Source of the DNA: Thermoleophilaceae bacterium
Lineage (GTDB): Bacteria > Actinomycetota > Thermoleophilia > Solirubrobacterales > Thermoleophilaceae
DNA: 44,162 nucleotides
Direction of reading: 5' to 3'
Assembly: GCA_036378175.1 (NCBI GenBank)
Contig: DASUWY010000019.1
Span: 1-44,162 of the forward strand
The notes under the pieces are model-generated. The model made no database searches, was not told the DNA's origin, and was given only the letters and a program-made list of their open reading frames with translations. Both the position numbers and the translations under genes were made by a program. This document shows positions 33,472 to 43,498 of the stretch, in pieces (positions within the stretch are counted from its first letter, which is position 1; the number at the start of each line of letters is the position of its first letter).

Positions 33472-34974
33472 TCAGCCGGTAAAACGCGGCGCTACGTGAC
33501 GTCGCGGCTTGGCCGCACGCTTTGCGCAGCGGGTGATGGTGCGGCGCGTGGTGGTGGTGTTGCCGGCGCCGTCGGTGGTGGTGATGCGGAGCACGTGACG
33601 GCCCGCCTTGAGCTTCTTCACGTTGATCTTCAGCGTGAAGCTCGTCTTGTTCTTCGTGTGGAGGCGCTTGCCGTCCAGCGTCACCCGCGTGCTCTTCACG
33701 CCGGACGCGTCGGTGGCATGCACGCGGACCGAGACTGTCCGCGTGACGCAGGCGGCGCGCACGCCCGCCACGGTCACCTTCGGCTTGGTGGTGTCGGCCG
33801 TCGGGCCGGGTGCCGGCGCGGGAGGGGGAGGCGCCGGCTGCAGCTCGAAGGCGCCGATGTCGCAACCGCCCAGTGCCGGACGAGGCAGGTCGCGCTGATC
33901 TGTGGGCACGCAGTTCGCGGAGTCCGCGTGATCCACCGCCGGACTGCTGGGCGCGAGCGCCATGGTGTCGCTCTCGCCGCCGTTGTTGCCGAGTGCGGCG
34001 AGCAGAGGGTCGCCCGTGATGTCACCGGCGGCCGTGAAGCCGCAGTCGCTCGTGCCCTGGAGGTTGTGTCCCTGCTCGGCCACCCCGCTGGTGTTGATCA
34101 CGCAGTCCTGCGGCGCGCCGTCCACGGTGTTTCCGGCCAGGATCGAGTTCGTGATCGTCGCGTCGTCATTGAAGAACACTCCGCCGCCGGCGTCGTCGCC
34201 TGACGCGCTGTTCCCGGCGATCGTCACGTGCTTGAACGCCGTCCCCTTCTCGTTCACGAAGATGCCGCCGCCCTGGCTGTGCGGGAACGTTGCCTTCGGA
34301 TCAGCCGGCAGCGCGGCATTGTTCGCCACCGTCACGTTCGTGAGGGTGAGCGCCTCATTGCCGAAGATGCCGCCGCCCTGGCCACCGCTGAATGTTCCCC
34401 CCGTGCCATCGGCCACGTTGCCGGCGATCAGGCTGTTCGTGATCGTCACCGCCTCGTCGCCGAACACGCCGCCGCCCTGGCCGCCGAAGTCCGGCTGGGA
34501 CAGGGCCTTGTTACCGATCACGGCCACGTGGTCGAGCGTCAAGAGCTGACCGTCGAAGAAGATCCCGCCGCCCTCGCCGGCTCCGAATGTCTCGGTGCCG
34601 GACGCCACGCCGCCGGTGATCGTCACGTGCGAGAGATTCACAGTGCCGTCGTTCACGAAGTACACGCGGGACTGCCCGCCGGCGTCGATGATCGTGTCGC
34701 GAGCGCTGTGGCCGACGATGGTGGTGGTGTTGCCGAAGTCGTCTGTTTCCAGCTGGCCGTGCGTGAGGACGTAGTGGCCCGCCGGGATGTTCACCGTGTC
34801 GTCGCCCGGACCCGCCTGGGCTGCGGCCAGCGCCTCCCGTATCGAGCAGGCGCTCGGATCGCAGCTGCCGATGTCGTCGCTCGTGGTCGTGACGTTGAAG
34901 GTGTTCGCCGCCGCCGTCCCGGCGAGGGCAAGAAGCGCCGCGCACAGCACGGCCGCGATCGTGGCGAGTCTCAT
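33472..34974 (-). CDS. Secreted right-handed beta-helix protein with CSLREA-like N-terminus
   Basis: A signal peptide (residues 1-22, ending LALAGTAAA) is followed by a CSLREA-type start (CDPSACSIREALAAAQAGPG) and about ten parallel beta-helix coils with recurring GQGGGIFGNE-like turns and N-x-S/T-rich strands. The C-terminal ~110 residues form an Ig/cadherin-like domain (VSVRVHATDASGVKSTRV) and a basic tail. No LPxTG motif is present, so it is probably released or loosely wall-bound. Substrate or ligand is unknown; similar folds include polysaccharide-binding adhesins and lyases. ATG 34972-34974 has GGAGGT five bases upstream. Length is 500 residues. Confidence 0.85.
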   Translation of the reverse strand: MRLATIAAVLCAALLALAGTAAANTFNVTTTSDDIGSCDPSACSIREALAAAQAGPGDDTVNIPAGHYVLTHGQLETDDFGNTTTIVGHSARDTIIDAGGQSRVYFVNDGTVNLSHVTITGGVASGTETFGAGEGGGIFFDGQLLTLDHVAVIGNKALSQPDFGGQGGGVFGDEAVTITNSLIAGNVADGTGGTFSGGQGGGIFGNEALTLTNVTVANNAALPADPKATFPHSQGGGIFVNEKGTAFKHVTIAGNSASGDDAGGGVFFNDDATITNSILAGNTVDGAPQDCVINTSGVAEQGHNLQGTSDCGFTAAGDITGDPLLAALGNNGGESDTMALAPSSPAVDHADSANCVPTDQRDLPRPALGGCDIGAFELQPAPPPPAPAPGPTADTTKPKVTVAGVRAACVTRTVSVRVHATDASGVKSTRVTLDGKRLHTKNKTSFTLKINVKKLKAGRHVLRITTTDGAGNTTTTRRTITRCAKRAAKPRRHVAPRFTG

Positions 34975-35057
34975 CTGCAACCTCCGTTCGTGATGACGGA
35001 GGCGAAGCTACGTGCGGCCGCTCACCAAATCCTCACAGAGCCTCCAACGGGGAACTC

Positions 35058-35086
35058 TGGACATGCCCGGATACGGGGGGTATCGT
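35058..35086 (+). promoter_or_regulatory. Candidate promoter of the membrane-cassette/CO dehydrogenase operon
   Basis: TGGACA (35058-35063), 17 bases, TATCGT (35081-35086): a housekeeping-like -35/-10 pair about 70 bases upstream of the first small gene. The spacer and -10 include a small palindrome GATAC-N5-GTATC, a possible operator. This is the only plausible promoter seen in the 184-bp gap. Confidence 0.35.
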
Positions 35087-35158
35087 CGCCGCTGGGGCAT
35101 CATTTGGCTCGGCGGCGCCGCGCTGGCCCGCCCATGACGGAGTGAGGAGGATTCGCAG

Positions 35159-35422
35159 ATGACCGTGGTGACCGCCTCGTCCACCGGATGGACGATTGGG
35201 ATCGTCCTCGGCGTCGTAGTGATTGCGGTGGCTGCGGCGATCGTCATCACAATCGTGCTCCTGGCGAGACGCATCGCCGCGCAGGCGGAGGCCGCCGAGC
35301 GCGCGCTGGAGGTGCTCCGCGAGCAGACGTCTGAGCTGCCGAACATTGCCCGCATCAACGACTCCGGTGTTCGAATACTTCACTCCGCGCGGGCGCTGAG
35401 AAAGGTGGCGGTGGGCAAATGA
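35159..35422 (+). CDS. Small membrane protein 1 of the CODH-linked cassette
   Basis: Not recognised as a named family. The 87-residue product has one strong membrane helix (about residues 11-36, GIVLGVVVIAVAAAIVITIV) followed by a short cytoplasmic amphipathic helix rich in Ala/Glu (AAQAEAAERALEVLREQTSEL) and PNIARINDSGVRIL. GGAGG lies nine bases before ATG 35159-35161. Its stop overlaps the next gene by 4 bp. It begins a run of five similarly built genes leading into coxMSL, so a role with CO dehydrogenase at the membrane is plausible but unproven. Confidence 0.8.
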   Translation: MTVVTASSTGWTIGIVLGVVVIAVAAAIVITIVLLARRIAAQAEAAERALEVLREQTSELPNIARINDSGVRILHSARALRKVAVGK

Positions 35423-35709
35423 CCGTTCTCGCGATTTCAGCCCACGGCTACTGGGGCATCGCGCTCATCATCGGCGTGGTGGCCGCCGCCGTGGTGGTGG
35501 TCCTGCTCGGCTTGCTCATCCAGGCGGTGAGCAGCATCGAAAACTCCGTCGAGGGCCTGCTCGCCACCGCCGGTGTGGTGGCGCGGCACACCTCGCACAT
35601 CCCGCAGCTCGAGGCCACCGCCCCGGTGCTGTCGCAGATCGTGGACGAGGCGGTGGTGCAGGACGGATACATGAACGCGCTCACAGACGGCTTCGGGGAG
35701 GCGATATGA
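35419..35709 (+). CDS. Small membrane protein 2 of the CODH-linked cassette
   Basis: The 96-residue product has one membrane helix (about residues 12-36, WGIALIIGVVAAAVVVVLLG) and a C-terminal cytoplasmic segment SSIENSVEGLLATAGVVARH with TSHIPQLEATAPVLSQIVDE. The TSxxPxL motif echoes TSELPNI in protein 1, suggesting the two are distant paralogues. It overlaps its neighbours by 4 bp on both sides (ATGA), so all five proteins should be made in linked amounts. Function unknown. Confidence 0.8.
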   Translation: MTVLAISAHGYWGIALIIGVVAAAVVVVLLGLLIQAVSSIENSVEGLLATAGVVARHTSHIPQLEATAPVLSQIVDEAVVQDGYMNALTDGFGEAI

Positions 35710-35981
35710 GCACCACCGCTTTTGTGATCCTCAGCGTCATGCTGGCGGCCGTGGTGATCCTGGTGCTGGTGGCGGCGCTCGTGCGCGTGCAGCAGGGGCT
35801 CGAACGGATCTCCGCGGGACTCGCCACGCTCGCCTCCGCCCTCGCCGGAGTGGAGGCGGACCACCTGCGCCCCCTGGAGGGCGCCGTGAAGGACATCAAC
35901 GCGCAGTTCGACATCATCCTCGGCGCGCTGCCGGGCATCGGGAAGAAGGCCGCGATCGTGGCCGAAAGGAGGCCGCGATGA
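35706..35981 (+). CDS. Small membrane protein 3 of the CODH-linked cassette
   Basis: The 91-residue product has one N-terminal membrane helix (about residues 5-27, FVILSVMLAAVVILVLVAAL) and a helical tail with VRVQQGLERISAGLATLASA and AVKDINAQFDIILGALPGI. The VKDINxQxD motif recurs in protein 5, so these two are related. The spacing of hydrophobic residues suggests a coiled coil lying along the membrane. It overlaps both neighbours by 4 bp. No catalytic motif is seen. Confidence 0.8.
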   Translation: MSTTAFVILSVMLAAVVILVLVAALVRVQQGLERISAGLATLASALAGVEADHLRPLEGAVKDINAQFDIILGALPGIGKKAAIVAERRPR

Positions 35982-36247
35982 CGCTCTGGTGGATCGGCGA
36001 CGTCCTGCTGTTCGTGGTGGTGATCCCGGTTGCGGCCTACCTCCTGCACCGCGTGTACAGCGCGGCGCGAAGCATCGATCCGAGCGTGAAGGAGATAGCT
36101 CACATGGCGGAGGCGGGGTCGAAGGATCTCGACGCCGTGCCGCTCCTGCTCACCACACAGGACCAGGTGCGGCAGACCGTGGCGGGCGTGGCCGGCTACG
36201 GCGCCTCGCTCGACGTGATCGTGGACGACGCGGAGGCGGCAGCATGA
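35978..36247 (+). CDS. Small membrane protein 4 of the CODH-linked cassette
   Basis: The 89-residue product has one N-terminal membrane helix (about residues 3-23, WWIGDVLLFVVVIPVAAYLL) followed by HRVYSAARSIDPSVKEIAHM and an acidic helical end (GASLDVIVDDAEAAA). It is built like its neighbours but lacks the VKDIN motif. It overlaps both neighbours by 4 bp. I find no family to assign. Confidence 0.78.
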   Translation: MTLWWIGDVLLFVVVIPVAAYLLHRVYSAARSIDPSVKEIAHMAEAGSKDLDAVPLLLTTQDQVRQTVAGVAGYGASLDVIVDDAEAAA

Positions 36248-36849
36248 GTGGTGCAGCGGTGGTGATGATCGTGGCGGTCGTCCTGATCGTCCTGGCGCTC
36301 GTGGTCTACCTCGTGGGCGTGATCCTCCAGCTCCGCAAGATCACCGCCGGGCTCGACCGCGTGATCGCGGGCGTGGGCCAGATCCTCGAGAAGACGAAGC
36401 CCGTGAACGAGGTGGTGAAGGACATCAACGGGCAGCTCGACGCCGGCGTCGACCTGCTCGAGGGCCTGCTCGTGAAGAAGGCCGGCCTGGTGGACAGCAT
36501 GGGGCTCATCGACGGCCTCTATCCGGGCGCCGCCGCGGAGGGCCTCCGCAACTTCCCGGAGAGCAAGGAGGTCGACGCCCCGCGCATCGGCGAGGTGTAC
36601 ACCAAGGGCACGCTCACGCTGGCGCGCCTTGGGCGCGAGGCGCCGATCGCCGCCGCGAGTCCCAATGGCCCCGCCATACGCAACCCGGCGTACGCCACGG
36701 CTTCCGCACGCGCGCTGTACCCAGGCGGACGCCCGGCCGAGCCCGAGCCGCTGCCGCGCTCGCCCGTGATCGGAACGGACTCACCGGTCCAGTACGAGCA
36801 GCGCGACGACATCGGCAAGCCGCGCAAGCGGATGCCGTCAAAGAGCTAG
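36244..36849 (+). CDS. Membrane protein 5 of the CODH-linked cassette, with a long soluble tail
   Basis: This 201-residue product is the largest of the five. It has one N-terminal membrane helix (about residues 4-28, VVMIVAVVLIVLALVVYLVG), then LRKITAGLDRVIAGVGQILE and VVKDINGQLDAGVDLLEGL, sharing VKDINxQxD with protein 3. A proline/arginine-rich disordered C-terminus follows (PGGRPAEPEPLPRSPVIG). The helical part is vaguely like MCE-type or methyl-accepting coiled coils, but no assignment is justified. It ends 18 bp before coxM with no terminator between, so it should be in the same transcript. Confidence 0.8.
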   Translation: MSGAAVVMIVAVVLIVLALVVYLVGVILQLRKITAGLDRVIAGVGQILEKTKPVNEVVKDINGQLDAGVDLLEGLLVKKAGLVDSMGLIDGLYPGAAAEGLRNFPESKEVDAPRIGEVYTKGTLTLARLGREAPIAAASPNGPAIRNPAYATASARALYPGGRPAEPEPLPRSPVIGTDSPVQYEQRDDIGKPRKRMPSKS

Positions 36850-36867
36850 GAACGAGAGGAGCGCACG

Positions 36868-37746
36868 TTGCAGACCCCCGCGTCCTTCGAGTATGAGCGC
36901 GCGACGAGCGTCGAGGGGGCAATCGCCTCCCTCGCGAGGCTCGGGCCCGAGGCCCGCGTGATCGCCGGTGGCCACAGCCTGCTGCCGATGATGAAGCTCC
37001 GGCTCGCACAGCCGGAACACCTGATCGACATCAACCCGCTCGAGCCCGAGCTGTCGTACATCCGCGACCAGGGTGGCGAGATCGCGATCGGCGCGCTCAC
37101 GAGGCACGTGGACCTGCTCAAGTCAGAGCTGCTGGCGGAGCACTTCCCGGTGTTCCGGGATGCCGAGGAGGTGATCGCGGACCCGGTGGTGCGCAACCGC
37201 GGGACGATCGGCGGCTCGCTCTGCCAGGCCGATCCCGCCGAGGACCTCTCGGCTGTGTGCACGGCGGTGAAGGCGAAGGCAGTGATTCGCGGGCCTAGCG
37301 GCCAGCGGGTGGTGCCGATGGACCAGTTCCACGTCGCGCCATACGCAACGGCGGTGGGCGATGGCGAGCTGCTCACGGAGGTCCGCCTGCCGCTCTTCCT
37401 GGGCGCGGGCAGCGCGCACGAGAAGGTGGAGCGCCGCGCGGGCGACTGGGCGATCGCGGCGGTGTCGGCGGCCGTGTGGGTGGATCGCGCGACGATCCAC
37501 GACGTGGGCATCGGGCTGAGCGCCGTGGGCCTCACCACGATCCATCTCAAGCGGGCGGAGGAGCTCCTGCGTGGACAGCCGCCGTCCGAGGAGTTGTTCG
37601 AGCAGGCGGCCACGATCGCCTCCGAGGACTGCTCCCCGATGGCGGACGGCCGCGGGCCGGTGGACTACAAGCGCCACCTCGCCGGCGTCCTCACCAAACG
37701 TGCACTCAGCCGCGCGACCGCGCGCGCTCTCAAGCAGGAGGCCTGA
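36868..37746 (+). CDS. coxM: Aerobic carbon monoxide dehydrogenase, FAD subunit
   Basis: CoxM passes electrons from the iron-sulfur subunit through FAD toward the respiratory chain. FAD-binding motifs AGGHSLLPMMKLRLAQP (near residue 33) and NRGTIGGSLCQADPAED (near residue 111) are intact, and the length (292 residues) is normal. Start is TTG 36868-36870 with AGGAG seven bases upstream. Gene order M-S-L followed by D and E is the canonical cox arrangement. It belongs to the operon that begins with five small membrane proteins. Confidence 0.93.
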   Translation: MQTPASFEYERATSVEGAIASLARLGPEARVIAGGHSLLPMMKLRLAQPEHLIDINPLEPELSYIRDQGGEIAIGALTRHVDLLKSELLAEHFPVFRDAEEVIADPVVRNRGTIGGSLCQADPAEDLSAVCTAVKAKAVIRGPSGQRVVPMDQFHVAPYATAVGDGELLTEVRLPLFLGAGSAHEKVERRAGDWAIAAVSAAVWVDRATIHDVGIGLSAVGLTTIHLKRAEELLRGQPPSEELFEQAATIASEDCSPMADGRGPVDYKRHLAGVLTKRALSRATARALKQEA

Positions 37747-37748
37747 CC

Positions 37749-38231
37749 ATGGAAGTCTCGATCAACATCAACGGCCGGCAGGTCTCCCGGGACATCGAGC
37801 CGCGCATGCTGCTCGTGCACTTCATCCGCGAGACGCCGGGCCTCACCGGAACCCACTGGGGCTGCGACACGTCCAACTGCGGCGCCTGCGTGGTGCTGAT
37901 GGACGGCAAGCCGGTGAAGTCGTGCACCACGCTCGCCGTGATGTGCGAGGGGCACGAGATCCGCACGGTGGAGTCGCTCGAGGTGAACGGACAGCTCGAC
38001 CCGATCCAGCAGGGCTTCCACGAGATGCACGCGCTCCAGTGCGGCTTCTGTACGCCCGGGATGCTGATGACCACGCGCGCGCTGCTCGACGAGAACCCCA
38101 ATCCAACTGACGAAGAGATCAGAACCGCGATATCCGGCGGCATCTGCCGCTGCACCGGCTACAAGAACATCGTCGCGGCCGTGAAGTGGGCGGCCGAGCA
38201 CGAGTCGGCCGGCATGAGGCAGGAGGTCTGA
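37749..38231 (+). CDS. coxS: Aerobic carbon monoxide dehydrogenase, [2Fe-2S] subunit
   Basis: The 160-residue protein has an N-terminal plant-type ferredoxin fold (GCDTSNCGACVVLMDGKPV, plus the Cys in KSCTT) and a C-terminal helical domain with the second cluster (ALQCGFCTPGMLM and GGICRCTGYKNIV). Together they carry the two [2Fe-2S] clusters that link the molybdenum site of CoxL to the FAD of CoxM. ATG 37749-37751 is two bases after the coxM stop. All eight cluster cysteines are present. Confidence 0.96.
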   Translation: MEVSININGRQVSRDIEPRMLLVHFIRETPGLTGTHWGCDTSNCGACVVLMDGKPVKSCTTLAVMCEGHEIRTVESLEVNGQLDPIQQGFHEMHALQCGFCTPGMLMTTRALLDENPNPTDEEIRTAISGGICRCTGYKNIVAAVKWAAEHESAGMRQEV

Positions 38232-38233
38232 GC

Positions 38234-40614
<2,381 letters not shown>

Positions 40615-40618
<4 letters not shown>

Positions 40619-41523
40619 GCCCGGACGAGGCAGCCGGAGAGATCCGGCGGCTCGTTCCCGACGTCGAGACGCTGGCGCAGCGCCTGGCCAGCGTGGACTA
40701 CCTGGTGGACGAGGGTCTCGCCACGTCCATGTTCCTGTCGCTGCGCCTGCCGCAGCCGCTGCTGCTCGAGGGCGAGGCCGGCGTGGGCAAGACCGAGGCT
40801 GCAAAGGCCCTCGCGCTCGTGCTCGACACGCCTCTGGTGCGCCTCCAGTGCTACGAGGGGATCGACGCCGCCGAGGCGCTGTACGAGTGGAACTATCCGC
40901 GCCAGCTCCTGTCGATCCGGCTGGCGGAGTCCCAGGGGGAGTCGCTCGCCGAGGAGGATCTGTTCGGCAGCGAGTACCTGATCCGCCGGCCGCTGCTGCG
41001 TGCCCTGGAGCATCCGGGGCCGCGTCCCGCGGTCCTGCTCGTGGACGAGATCGACCGCGCGGACGACGACTTCGAGGCGTTCCTGCTCGAGCTTCTGGCA
41101 GAGGCCGCGGTCACGATTCCGGAGCTCGGCACCATTCGCGCCACGCACCCGCCGATCATCGTCCTCACCTCCAACCGCACGCGCGATCTGCACGACGCCG
41201 TGAAGCGCCGCTGCCTCTACCACTGGATCCCCTACCCCACGCCCGAGCGCGAGGTGGAGATCGTGCGGCGGCGGGTGAAGGGCGCGTCGGAGACGCTTGC
41301 GGTGCAGGTGGCGAACGCGGTTTCCCGCATGCGCGACTCGGACGTGCAGAAGCCGCCCGGCATCGCCGAGGCGATCGACTGGCTGGCGGCGCTCGAGCTG
41401 TTGGGCGTGGAGACGCTCGACCCGAACACGGTCGATCGCACGCTTGGAACCGTCCTGAAGTACGAGGAGGACCAGGAGGTGATTCGCGCGGGCGGCCTGG
41501 AGCAGCTCGTGCGGAGCGAATGA
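40615..41523 (+). CDS. coxD: MoxR-family AAA+ ATPase CoxD
   Basis: CoxD is a membrane-associated AAA+ chaperone needed to insert sulfur and copper into the CoxL active site in studied CO oxidisers. Walker A GEAGVGKT is at residues 53-60, Walker B in VLLVDEIDRADDDFEAFLL, and the sensor region in IIVLTSNRTRDLHDAVKRR. Length is 302 residues. GTG 40615-40617 overlaps the coxL stop (GTGA); an ATG at 40579 would overlap coxL by 40 bp. It is paired with the VWA protein CoxE, a common MoxR-VWA partnership. Confidence 0.92.
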
Positions 41524-42866
41524 GCCGCGAGTTTCGGGTATCGACTGTCGAGCTGGATCTGCCGCCGTTCGTGGGCGCCTTCAGCCGCCTGCTTCACGAG
41601 GCGGGCCTACCCATCACACCGGCTCGCGCCGCCGATTTCGCGCGCGCGCTCACGCTCGTCGAGCCCATCTCCCGGCGGCGCCTCTACTGGACCGCGCGGA
41701 GCGTGCTCGTGTCCGACCAGTCGCAGGTGAAGACGTTCGACTCCGTGTTCTTCTCCGTGTTCGGGCAGCGGATGGACGACGAGCCATTCGAGCCGGAGCT
41801 CCCGGAGGGAGCCACCGACGCCGAACCTCCGACCTCCGACCTCCCGCCTCAGACCTCCGGCGAGGCGAAAGGCGGCCGTTCGTCCTGGAGCCACGCCGGC
41901 GGAGCGAGCGAAGAGGAAGGATCGGAGCCGCAGCCCCATCTGCTCGCAAGCGACGAGGAGCGGCTGGCCTCAAAGAGCTTCGACGCGCTCGAGCCCGGCG
42001 AGCTGGCGCAGCTCTACCAGCTGATGTCGCGCCTCGAGCTGGCCACGCCGGTGCGGCGCACACGCCGGCAGGTGCGCAGCCGCCATGGGGCGAAGATCGA
42101 CATGCGCCGCACGCTGCGTGGCAGCCTCCGCACCGCCGGCGACCCGGTGCACCTGCGCCACCGCGAGCGCCGCATCAAGCGCCGGCGGCTCGTGATGCTC
42201 TGCGATATCTCGGGCTCGATGGAGCCGTACGCGCGCGCGTACCTGCAGTTCCTCACCTCCGCCGTCGGCAGCGGCCCCAACGCCGAGGTGTTCGTGTTCG
42301 CCACGCGCCTCACCCGTCTCACGCGAGCGCTGTCCTCGCGCAACCCGGAGCGGGCGATACAGCGTGCGGCGCACACCGCGCCGGACTGGTCGAGCGGCAC
42401 TCGCATCGGAGACGCTCTGAAGGAGTTCAACGACCGCCACGGGCGGCGCGGCATGGCGCGCGGTGCGGTGATCGTGATCCTCTCCGATGGCTGGGAGCGC
42501 GGGGACCCGAAGCTGGTGGCGCGTGAAATGGAGCGGCTCTCACGGCTCGCCCACAAGATCATCTGGGTGAACCCGCGCGTGGCGTCCAGTTTCTTCGTGC
42601 CGCGCACAGGTGGAATGAGAGCGGCATTGCCGTATTGCGACACGGTGGTGAGCGGACACAGCTTCGCGGCATTGAAGGAGGTGGTGAACGCGATCGCGGA
42701 CGAGCTCCCCTCGGGCCGCCGGCCTCCCGTCTCCGGCCTCGCGCCCGAGCCGCCGGAGGAGGACTGGCCGAGTGCCACTCCTGTCGCGGGCAGCTCCGTG
42801 GCCATGCCTTCCGGTCACGCGCCTTCACGCGGCAACACCACACCGGGTTGGGTCACCGATGAGTGA
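41520..42866 (+). CDS. coxE: VWA-domain protein CoxE
   Basis: CoxE works with the AAA+ protein CoxD in maturation of CO dehydrogenase. The C-terminal VWA domain has the metal-ion-dependent adhesion motif CDISGSM at about residues 228-234, with TAPDWSSGTRIGDALKEF and VIVILSDGWERGDPKLV. The N-terminal ~90 residues are helical. Between them, a disordered Pro/Ser/Glu-rich linker (residues ~100-150) includes heptamer-repeat sequence at 41821-41861, and the C-terminal tail contains a degenerate copy (42725-42745). At 448 residues it is somewhat longer than usual because of these. It overlaps coxD by 4 bp. Confidence 0.9.
   Translation: MSREFRVSTVELDLPPFVGAFSRLLHEAGLPITPARAADFARALTLVEPISRRRLYWTARSVLVSDQSQVKTFDSVFFSVFGQRMDDEPFEPELPEGATDAEPPTSDLPPQTSGEAKGGRSSWSHAGGASEEEGSEPQPHLLASDEERLASKSFDALEPGELAQLYQLMSRLELATPVRRTRRQVRSRHGAKIDMRRTLRGSLRTAGDPVHLRHRERRIKRRRLVMLCDISGSMEPYARAYLQFLTSAVGSGPNAEVFVFATRLTRLTRALSSRNPERAIQRAAHTAPDWSSGTRIGDALKEFNDRHGRRGMARGAVIVILSDGWERGDPKLVAREMERLSRLAHKIIWVNPRVASSFFVPRTGGMRAALPYCDTVVSGHSFAALKEVVNAIADELPSGRRPPVSGLAPEPPEEDWPSATPVAGSSVAMPSGHAPSRGNTTPGWVTDE
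41821..41861 (-). repeat. Heptamer repeat (about 5 units) inside coxE
   Basis: Plus-strand units include two perfect TCCGACC followed by TCCCGCC, TCAGACC and TCCGGCG. It encodes the PPTSDLPPQTSG linker between the N-terminal and VWA domains of CoxE. Confidence 0.75.
42725..42745 (-). repeat. Degenerate heptamer repeat (3 units) in the coxE 3' end
   Basis: TCCCGTC, TCCGGCC and TCGCGCC on the plus strand. It encodes RPPVSGLAP in the disordered C-terminal tail of CoxE. It is the weakest member of the family and could be chance in such sequence. Confidence 0.35.
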
Positions 42867-43044
42867 GCCGAAGACCTGCATCTATCCCGGCTGTGAGCGC
42901 CCCGCGGCCCCGTCGGATCCGCGTGGCGGCCCGCAGCCGGCGTTCTGTGACCTCGAGGAGCACAACGCGCTGACGGCACATCAAGAGCGCCAGCGCCTGG
43001 CCAAAGAGGGTTCTAACGAGGAGAAGGAGGAAGCGAGTGGCTAA
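42859..43044 (+). CDS. Small Cys-rich protein (zinc-finger-like) in the CODH operon
   Basis: The 61-residue product begins MSEPKTCIYPGCERPAAP and has Cys7, Cys12 and Cys30 plus His36 nearby (FCDLEEHNALTAH), a plausible zinc site. A charged helical tail follows. Similar short CIYPGCxRPA segments occur in actinobacterial replication or mobile-element proteins, but the role here is unknown. The ATG overlaps the coxE stop by 8 bp and the gene overlaps the next one by 8 bp, so it is translated as part of the cox operon. Confidence 0.75.
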   Translation: MSEPKTCIYPGCERPAAPSDPRGGPQPAFCDLEEHNALTAHQERQRLAKEGSNEEKEEASG

Positions 43045-43498
43045 CGAGGCCTATCGCGCGGTGTTCCTGCGCGTTCACCCCACGGGCAAGATGGTGCTGA
43101 GCCTGACCACGGAGTCCGACGGCAAGGAGCCCGAGTACGCGCAGCTCGTGGCGCACGAGCTCGGGGTGCCGCCGCTCGACGTGAAGGTGGTGCCGGCGGA
43201 CACCGACCGCTTCGGCGAGGGGCACGGCTACAACACGGCGCCCTCGGACGGCACGCAGGCTGCGATCGTGAGCGCCACGGGCAAGATCCGCGAAAAGGCG
43301 CAGCTCCTGGCGGGCGTGGCGCTCGGCGCGCCGCCGGAGACGCTCACCTGGAAGAACGGCGCGTTCATGAACGGCGACGGCAGCGACCCGACCCAGGTGA
43401 AGACGATCGAGGACATCGCCATGTACGCGCACGGCACCGGCGCGCTGCCGCCGGGCGTGGAGGGCGGCCTCGACGGCCAGACCGTGTATCGCGACTAG
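43037..43498 (+). CDS. Free-standing CoxL-domain paralogue lacking cofactor-binding residues
   Basis: The 153-residue protein aligns by eye over nearly its whole length with residues ~490-634 of the CoxL encoded 2.5 kb upstream: RVHPTGK vs RVHPSGK, ELGVPPLDVKV vs ELGIPPEDVQV, DTDR in both, and VEGGLDGQTVY vs MEGGLDAQVIY. CoxL QTQGQGHET, which contacts the molybdenum cofactor, is replaced by TTESDGKEPE, and GSRSTPVSG by NTAPSDGTQ. GTG 43037-43039 has a perfect AAGGAGG upstream and the frame is intact, so it looks like a maintained gene rather than debris. Function unknown: assembly partner, decoy or regulator are possible. Catalysis on its own is unlikely. Confidence 0.85.
   Translation: MANEAYRAVFLRVHPTGKMVLSLTTESDGKEPEYAQLVAHELGVPPLDVKVVPADTDRFGEGHGYNTAPSDGTQAAIVSATGKIREKAQLLAGVALGAPPETLTWKNGAFMNGDGSDPTQVKTIEDIAMYAHGTGALPPGVEGGLDGQTVYRD

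Follow-up and report, generated by a model that had tools for sequence, protein, structure and literature searches.

How the electrons of soluble trace-gas enzymes travel from H2 or CO to the membrane has so far received separate answers, HucM for Huc and CoxG for the CO dehydrogenase (CODH) of mycobacteria. The HucM stalk of Huc delivers menaquinone over 94 Å; it is built from one protein as a homotetramer and is described as peripherally membrane-associated (PMC10017518). According to PMC13240472, which cites Kropp et al. 2025, CoxG is a menaquinone-binding membrane protein that transfers CODH electrons to the quinone pool. Group 1l [NiFe]-hydrogenases come with five short membrane proteins, HylTM1-5, which are encoded between the subunit genes, and the group 1m [NiFe]-hydrogenase cluster with two small single-TM proteins of 82-92 aa (PMC9561532). 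Robiginitalea biformata and Marinovum algicola FF3 are group 1l strains named in the literature (PMC10305171). In the open-access literature searched, HylTM is the subject of no functional study, and homologs of it are not reported alongside CODH, though subscription papers could contain such a report.

The window, i.e., the whole stretch of 44,162 nucleotides analysed here (Thermoleophilaceae bacterium, contig DASUWY010000019.1), carries five small genes in front of a CODH operon. They are consecutive, lie on the forward strand and encode, as initially annotated, proteins of 87, 96, 91, 89 and 201 aa: T1 (35159..35422), HylTM1-like, with a single TM helix and recognised as an ORF with colinear homologs; T2 (35419..35709), HylTM2-like, with an invariant Trp12; T3 (35706..35981), HylTM3-like; T4 (35978..36247), HylTM4-like; and T5 (36244..36849), HylTM5-like, which starts with the ATG at 36244 within a longer mechanical ORF. 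All T1-T5 neighbours overlap by 4 bp, each overlap being ATGA, and the T5 stop is followed by a spacer of 18 bp (36850..36867, forward strand) and the coxM start (TTG, 36868). The absence of a terminator before coxM likewise held, with zero terminator-like sites in 34900-37200; the sole promoter-like site of this stretch is located upstream of T1 (35058-35086). Gene calls were made by a simple script, the genomes compared are mostly drafts, and L-numbers denote compared loci.

Each of the five proteins has one strong hydrophobic segment at its N-terminus, in line with the single N-terminal membrane helix proposed for them. The cytoplasmic amphipathic helix proposed for all five is clear in T5 and in T3, whose tail is strongly amphipathic, and moderate in T4, but weak in T1 and T2. 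That the genes are real follows from their dN/dS of 0.11-0.15 against a same-genus genome (0.15 for T1), which resembles that of the neighbours coxM and coxS and is a sign of purifying selection. Pfam and NCBIfam scans assigned no family to any of the five, and the CoxG domain PF06240 found no match in the Pfam scan. DUF948 (PF06103) was considered for T5 and dismissed at 12.7 bits against a Pfam gathering cut-off of 37.2; a weak match to DUF7289 among the five also stayed below its cut-off. Profiles of T5 and T2 retrieved generic helical or chance-level matches only from the PDB chains.

The operon downstream, again on the forward strand, starts with coxM (36868..37746), the FAD subunit of CODH (PF00941, PF03450). 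It continues with coxS (37749..38231), the iron-sulfur subunit, assigned by position and sequence without a Pfam scan and with homologs at the same place in related operons. Then follow coxL (38234..40618), coxD (40615..41523) for a MoxR-type AAA ATPase, and coxE (41520..42866) for a VWA protein; homologs of the latter two in a hydrogenase locus are classed as AAA_5 and VWA_CoxE, respectively. CoxL scores 1225.9 bits against TIGR02416 (cut-off 991.15) and has the active-site motif AYRCSFR, which conforms to the AYxCSFR of form I; its closest solved structure is 8uem. Judged by sequence, the partner enzyme is a genuine form I aerobic CODH. The operon and its relatives have further peculiarities. 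A free-standing CoxL fragment of 153 aa (43037..43498, forward strand; partial PF20256 match) is kept 3' of coxE in many cassette-type CODH operons, mostly with 143-154 aa, and its dN/dS of 0.26 (against L029) indicates purifying selection. Between coxE and this fragment lies a short Cys-containing protein of about 60 aa (42865-43044), and L062, L063, L066 and L086 have small ORFs of about 61-66 aa at the corresponding position. In L055, L062, L067 and L086, the region of the cassette-type operon encodes a further CoxL, with AYACSFR or AYSCSFR, and additional coxM/coxS copies precede the cassette in L062 and L068.

The block was traced with T5 in 61 related genomes and then with T2, coxL and hydrogenase in 250 genomes of the same class, 30 of which are T2-positive. 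The block accompanies CODH as T1-T5 (layout A) in 19 Thermoleophilia genomes of six families. It stands as a whole directly before coxM in 14 of them, the window included; four genomes, all of a single genus, have it a few kilobases away (L071 shows T5 alone at a contig end), and in one it is divided over two contigs. The linkage to CODH that had been read from the window alone is therefore tight and evolutionarily conserved. In the remaining T2-positive genomes, the block mostly adjoins [NiFe]-hydrogenase genes. The form I coxMSL operons that lack it belong to neighbouring clades (L079-L085). In layout B the order is coxM-coxS-coxL-xdhC-coxG-T4-T5-T1-T2-T3 (L149, L151, L155, L156, L158, L159 and L206, with variants in L204 and L205), and CoxL is only about 54-57% identical to that of the window. 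Counted over other classes, CODH linkage was seen in nine loci with a gene order differing from layout A. Cassettes apart from both enzyme genes are L033, L034, L073 and L148; otherwise unbiased searches with T2 and T4 led almost everywhere to CODH or hydrogenase loci. Another CoxL clade (L087-L092) has AYRCSFR and 60-64% identity to the window's CoxL, and its operons lack the cassette and an anchored CoxG alike. Because of this clade, neither of the two is indispensable.

A first reading of L028-L030 had suggested a module for CODH only. This reading, which was also implied by the initial annotation, was ruled out by the hydrogenase-linked cassettes: [NiFe]-hydrogenases come with this set of five genes as well, and its counterpart is HylTM1-5. 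When 396 genomes across the phylum were searched with T4, 39 were positive, with neighbourhoods of three kinds, hydS-T1-T2-T3-T4-T5-hydL, loci resembling group 1m hydrogenases, and CODH layout B. The first arrangement, seen in L160, L162, L164, L166, L167, L207-L209 and L170, equals the one published for group 1l with HylTM1-5 (PMC9561532). Five T-type genes occupy the same hydS/hydL position in the gammaproteobacterium HIMB30 (L179) and two other proteobacterial MAGs. In Rubrobacteraceae, profiles from CODH-linked members recovered the five genes of hydS-T1-T5-hydL loci, for the most part in the same order; profiles from all members widened the range to Chloroflexi and Proteobacteria. When named genomes were scanned with one group 1l-type large subunit, the arrangement appeared in Rubrobacteraceae and Chloroflexi, and also in Gemmatimonadaceae and Acidobacteria, there with some T genes not recognised.

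The correspondence was examined gene by gene with profiles from six CODH-linked clusters only, scored on eight other clusters. The matching profile was the best one for 37 of 40 genes. The three misses are all third genes, on which the T5 and T3 profiles score about equally; T3 accordingly shows the weakest correspondence to the HylTM block. By these sequence comparisons, made with loci of the published layout and not with a group 1l sequence named in the literature, T1-T5 are homologous to HylTM1-5 gene by gene; plasmid searches had found no literature-named group 1l strain. Like HylTM1-5, they are five short proteins with one TM helix each, encoded in one block of consecutive genes with counterparts by profile and mostly by order. 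Unlike the HylTM block, which lies between hydS and hydL, the window block precedes coxM, its partner is a molybdenum-copper CODH and not a hydrogenase, and T5 bears a tail specific for the CODH clade. The [NiFe]-hydrogenase locus of the window's genome (L113, contig C14), with hyp genes nearby, has no T genes. At the second hydrogenase type, homologous sub-blocks T1-T3 and T4-T5 adjoin hydSL, HybD, DUF1059, CooC-type and regulator genes, a gene content from which we infer group 1m. Unlike in the window, the relatives there often form two separate sub-blocks and are often transcribed divergently from hydSL. The culturable Haloechinothrix halophila has T1-T3 next to its hydrogenase (L184). Longer single-TM proteins of about 190-280 aa matching T3/T4 profiles adjoin cassettes in L031, L032, L059, L037, L146, L147, L154 and L163; some of them are rich in N-T/I-N repeats.

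The five proteins are also mutual paralogs. Their suspected origin by duplication was substantiated by profile-profile comparison (E 2e-14 for T1-T2, 3.5e-14 for T3-T5 and 1.6e-12 for T2-T4, with reversed controls at best 5e-4), and the subgroups are {T1,T2,T4} and {T3,T5}. The tree of the concatenated cassettes splits exactly by partner enzyme without excess changes into CODH_A, CODH_B, hyd_1l and hyd_5; the AU test (p-AU 0.585) does not reject a clade that unites CODH_A and CODH_B with the two orphan cassettes. In the coxL tree, the cassette-linked enzymes form two clades with cassette-less clades between them, a few rows labelled 'none' being contig-end cases (L055, L071, L093).

AlphaFold predicts T5 as one helix from residue 3 to 92 (block means of pLDDT between 76 and 98 as far as residue 80); the remaining tail of about 100 aa is predicted to be disordered. 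This tail is conserved in the CODH_A clade only; in layout B, T3 has a conserved tail instead. A helix of 90 residues would leave about 95 Å past the membrane, close to the 94 Å of the HucM stalk. T2 is predicted to have a helix from 8 to 58, a break at the HTSHIP stretch and a second helix from 63 to 93. These models are of single chains, and AlphaFold is prone to drawing out coiled coils. T3 contains one Asn that does not vary in any of the 40 clusters compared; in T5 it is almost invariant. Across these 40 clusters, T1-T5 have no conserved Cys or His column and hence no heme or Fe-S wire.

CoxG varies with the cassette. In five form I operons without cassette (L079-L082, L109) it comprises 222-253 aa and has a hydrophobic C-terminus. 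In layout A cassette operons it is an anchor-less protein of 138-144 aa, in layout B one of 181-207 aa without TM, and all complete cassette-linked operons examined have an anchor-less CoxG; L085 and L217 are truncated at contig ends, and the start in L066 is uncertain. The window genome contains a single CoxG match, anchor-less and on another contig (L094). L087-L089, which belong to a different coxL clade, have neither the CoxG anchor nor the cassette, and some cassette genomes (L104, L106-L108) encode anchored CoxG paralogs at other sites. The correlation of the cassette with anchor-less CoxG is an association in related genomes and not a functional test. A plain exclusion of CoxG by the cassette was discarded: CoxG is present in the cassette operons, minus its anchor.

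What might such a set of proteins do? Of the roles initially proposed, a membrane dock or scaffold is the best inference, while a strict electron-transfer scaffold is made unlikely by the missing Cys and His. We consider it moderately probable that T1-T5 are the CODH version of the HylTM1-5 module, an exchangeable membrane dock and stalk that would keep trace-gas dehydrogenases at the membrane so that they can reduce quinone. The five paralogous single-pass proteins would most likely be oriented N-out/C-in, and their membrane helices and long cytoplasmic helices may assemble into one complex, a membrane-rooted stalk or platform. This stalk would keep the cytoplasmic CoxMSL at the inner membrane and open the quinone pool to it; in hydrogenase operons the same module would serve HylSL-type enzymes. 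With CODH, the module may replace the anchoring part of CoxG, the soluble quinone/lipid-binding domain being kept. The clade-specific tails, that of T5 in layout A and that of T3 in layout B, could adapt the common core to the enzyme in question. More tentatively, and with less than even probability in our view, T1-T5/HylTM may form a hetero-oligomeric, membrane-rooted helical conduit that brings quinone to the docked enzyme, is exchangeable between molybdenum-copper CODH and nickel-iron hydrogenases, and was gained by CODH more than once as a general plug-in for atmospheric trace gases.

Of course, other explanations are being considered. The proteins could be a passive tether or oligomerisation scaffold, which only concentrates the enzymes at the membrane and leaves the reduction of quinone to others such as soluble CoxG. 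The lack of cofactor-binding residues in T1-T5 and the retention of the soluble CoxG domain in CODH operons are compatible with this idea. Yet no CoxG homolog accompanies the cassette in the fetched stretches of group 1l loci, where some quinone route would still be required, and five distinct conserved subunits seem excessive for a plain tether; we rate it as rather unlikely. Still less probable appears a maturation platform outside the working enzyme, a membrane assembly site where chaperones of the CoxD/CoxE type activate CODH or hydrogenase. In many hydrogenase loci (L037, L041, L060, L070), the cassette does have neighbours resembling coxD and coxE (54-57% and 36-38% identity). However, the stretches fetched for group 1l loci contain the cassette and no such genes, and both coxD and coxE are present in CODH operons that lack the cassette (L079-L082). 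A dedicated platform, which the initial annotation had proposed for CoxD/CoxE, is weakened by this dissociation in both directions, and the link with the CoxG anchor does not follow from it. A lipid or membrane-stress operon unrelated to CODH and co-transcribed with it by chance could explain the few cassettes away from either enzyme gene (L033, L034, L073). It is strongly disfavoured and hardly credible, as the linkage recurs in 19 Thermoleophilia genomes and, with different gene order, in nine loci of other classes, and independently with two hydrogenase types.

The dock and stalk reading has a functional parallel in HucM. Long helices that bridge about 90-95 Å, from a soluble trace-gas enzyme to membrane and menaquinone, would be the common element. 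The likeness would be one of working only: the T5 and T2 profiles revealed no sequence similarity to HucM among the PDB chains, and HucM, unlike the cassette, consists of a single protein. By analogy, the cassette fits something that works like the HucM stalk and is not a HucM homolog. With CoxG (PF06240; PMC13240472), the cassette would share the role of linking aerobic CODH to membrane and quinone, whereas fold and family differ from T1-T5.

If the proposed mechanism is true, one membrane-protein family serving CODH and hydrogenases would join two problems that have been answered separately. It would provide the unexplained HylTM proteins with a predicted function and account for CODH operons with an anchor-less CoxG. 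It further predicts that the module and its enzyme co-purify, that deletion abolishes membrane coupling, and that the tail of T5 or T3 sets the specificity. That the five window proteins belong to the same set as the hydrogenase-linked ones suggests an interchangeable part with which bacteria link different air-feeding enzymes to the cell membrane.
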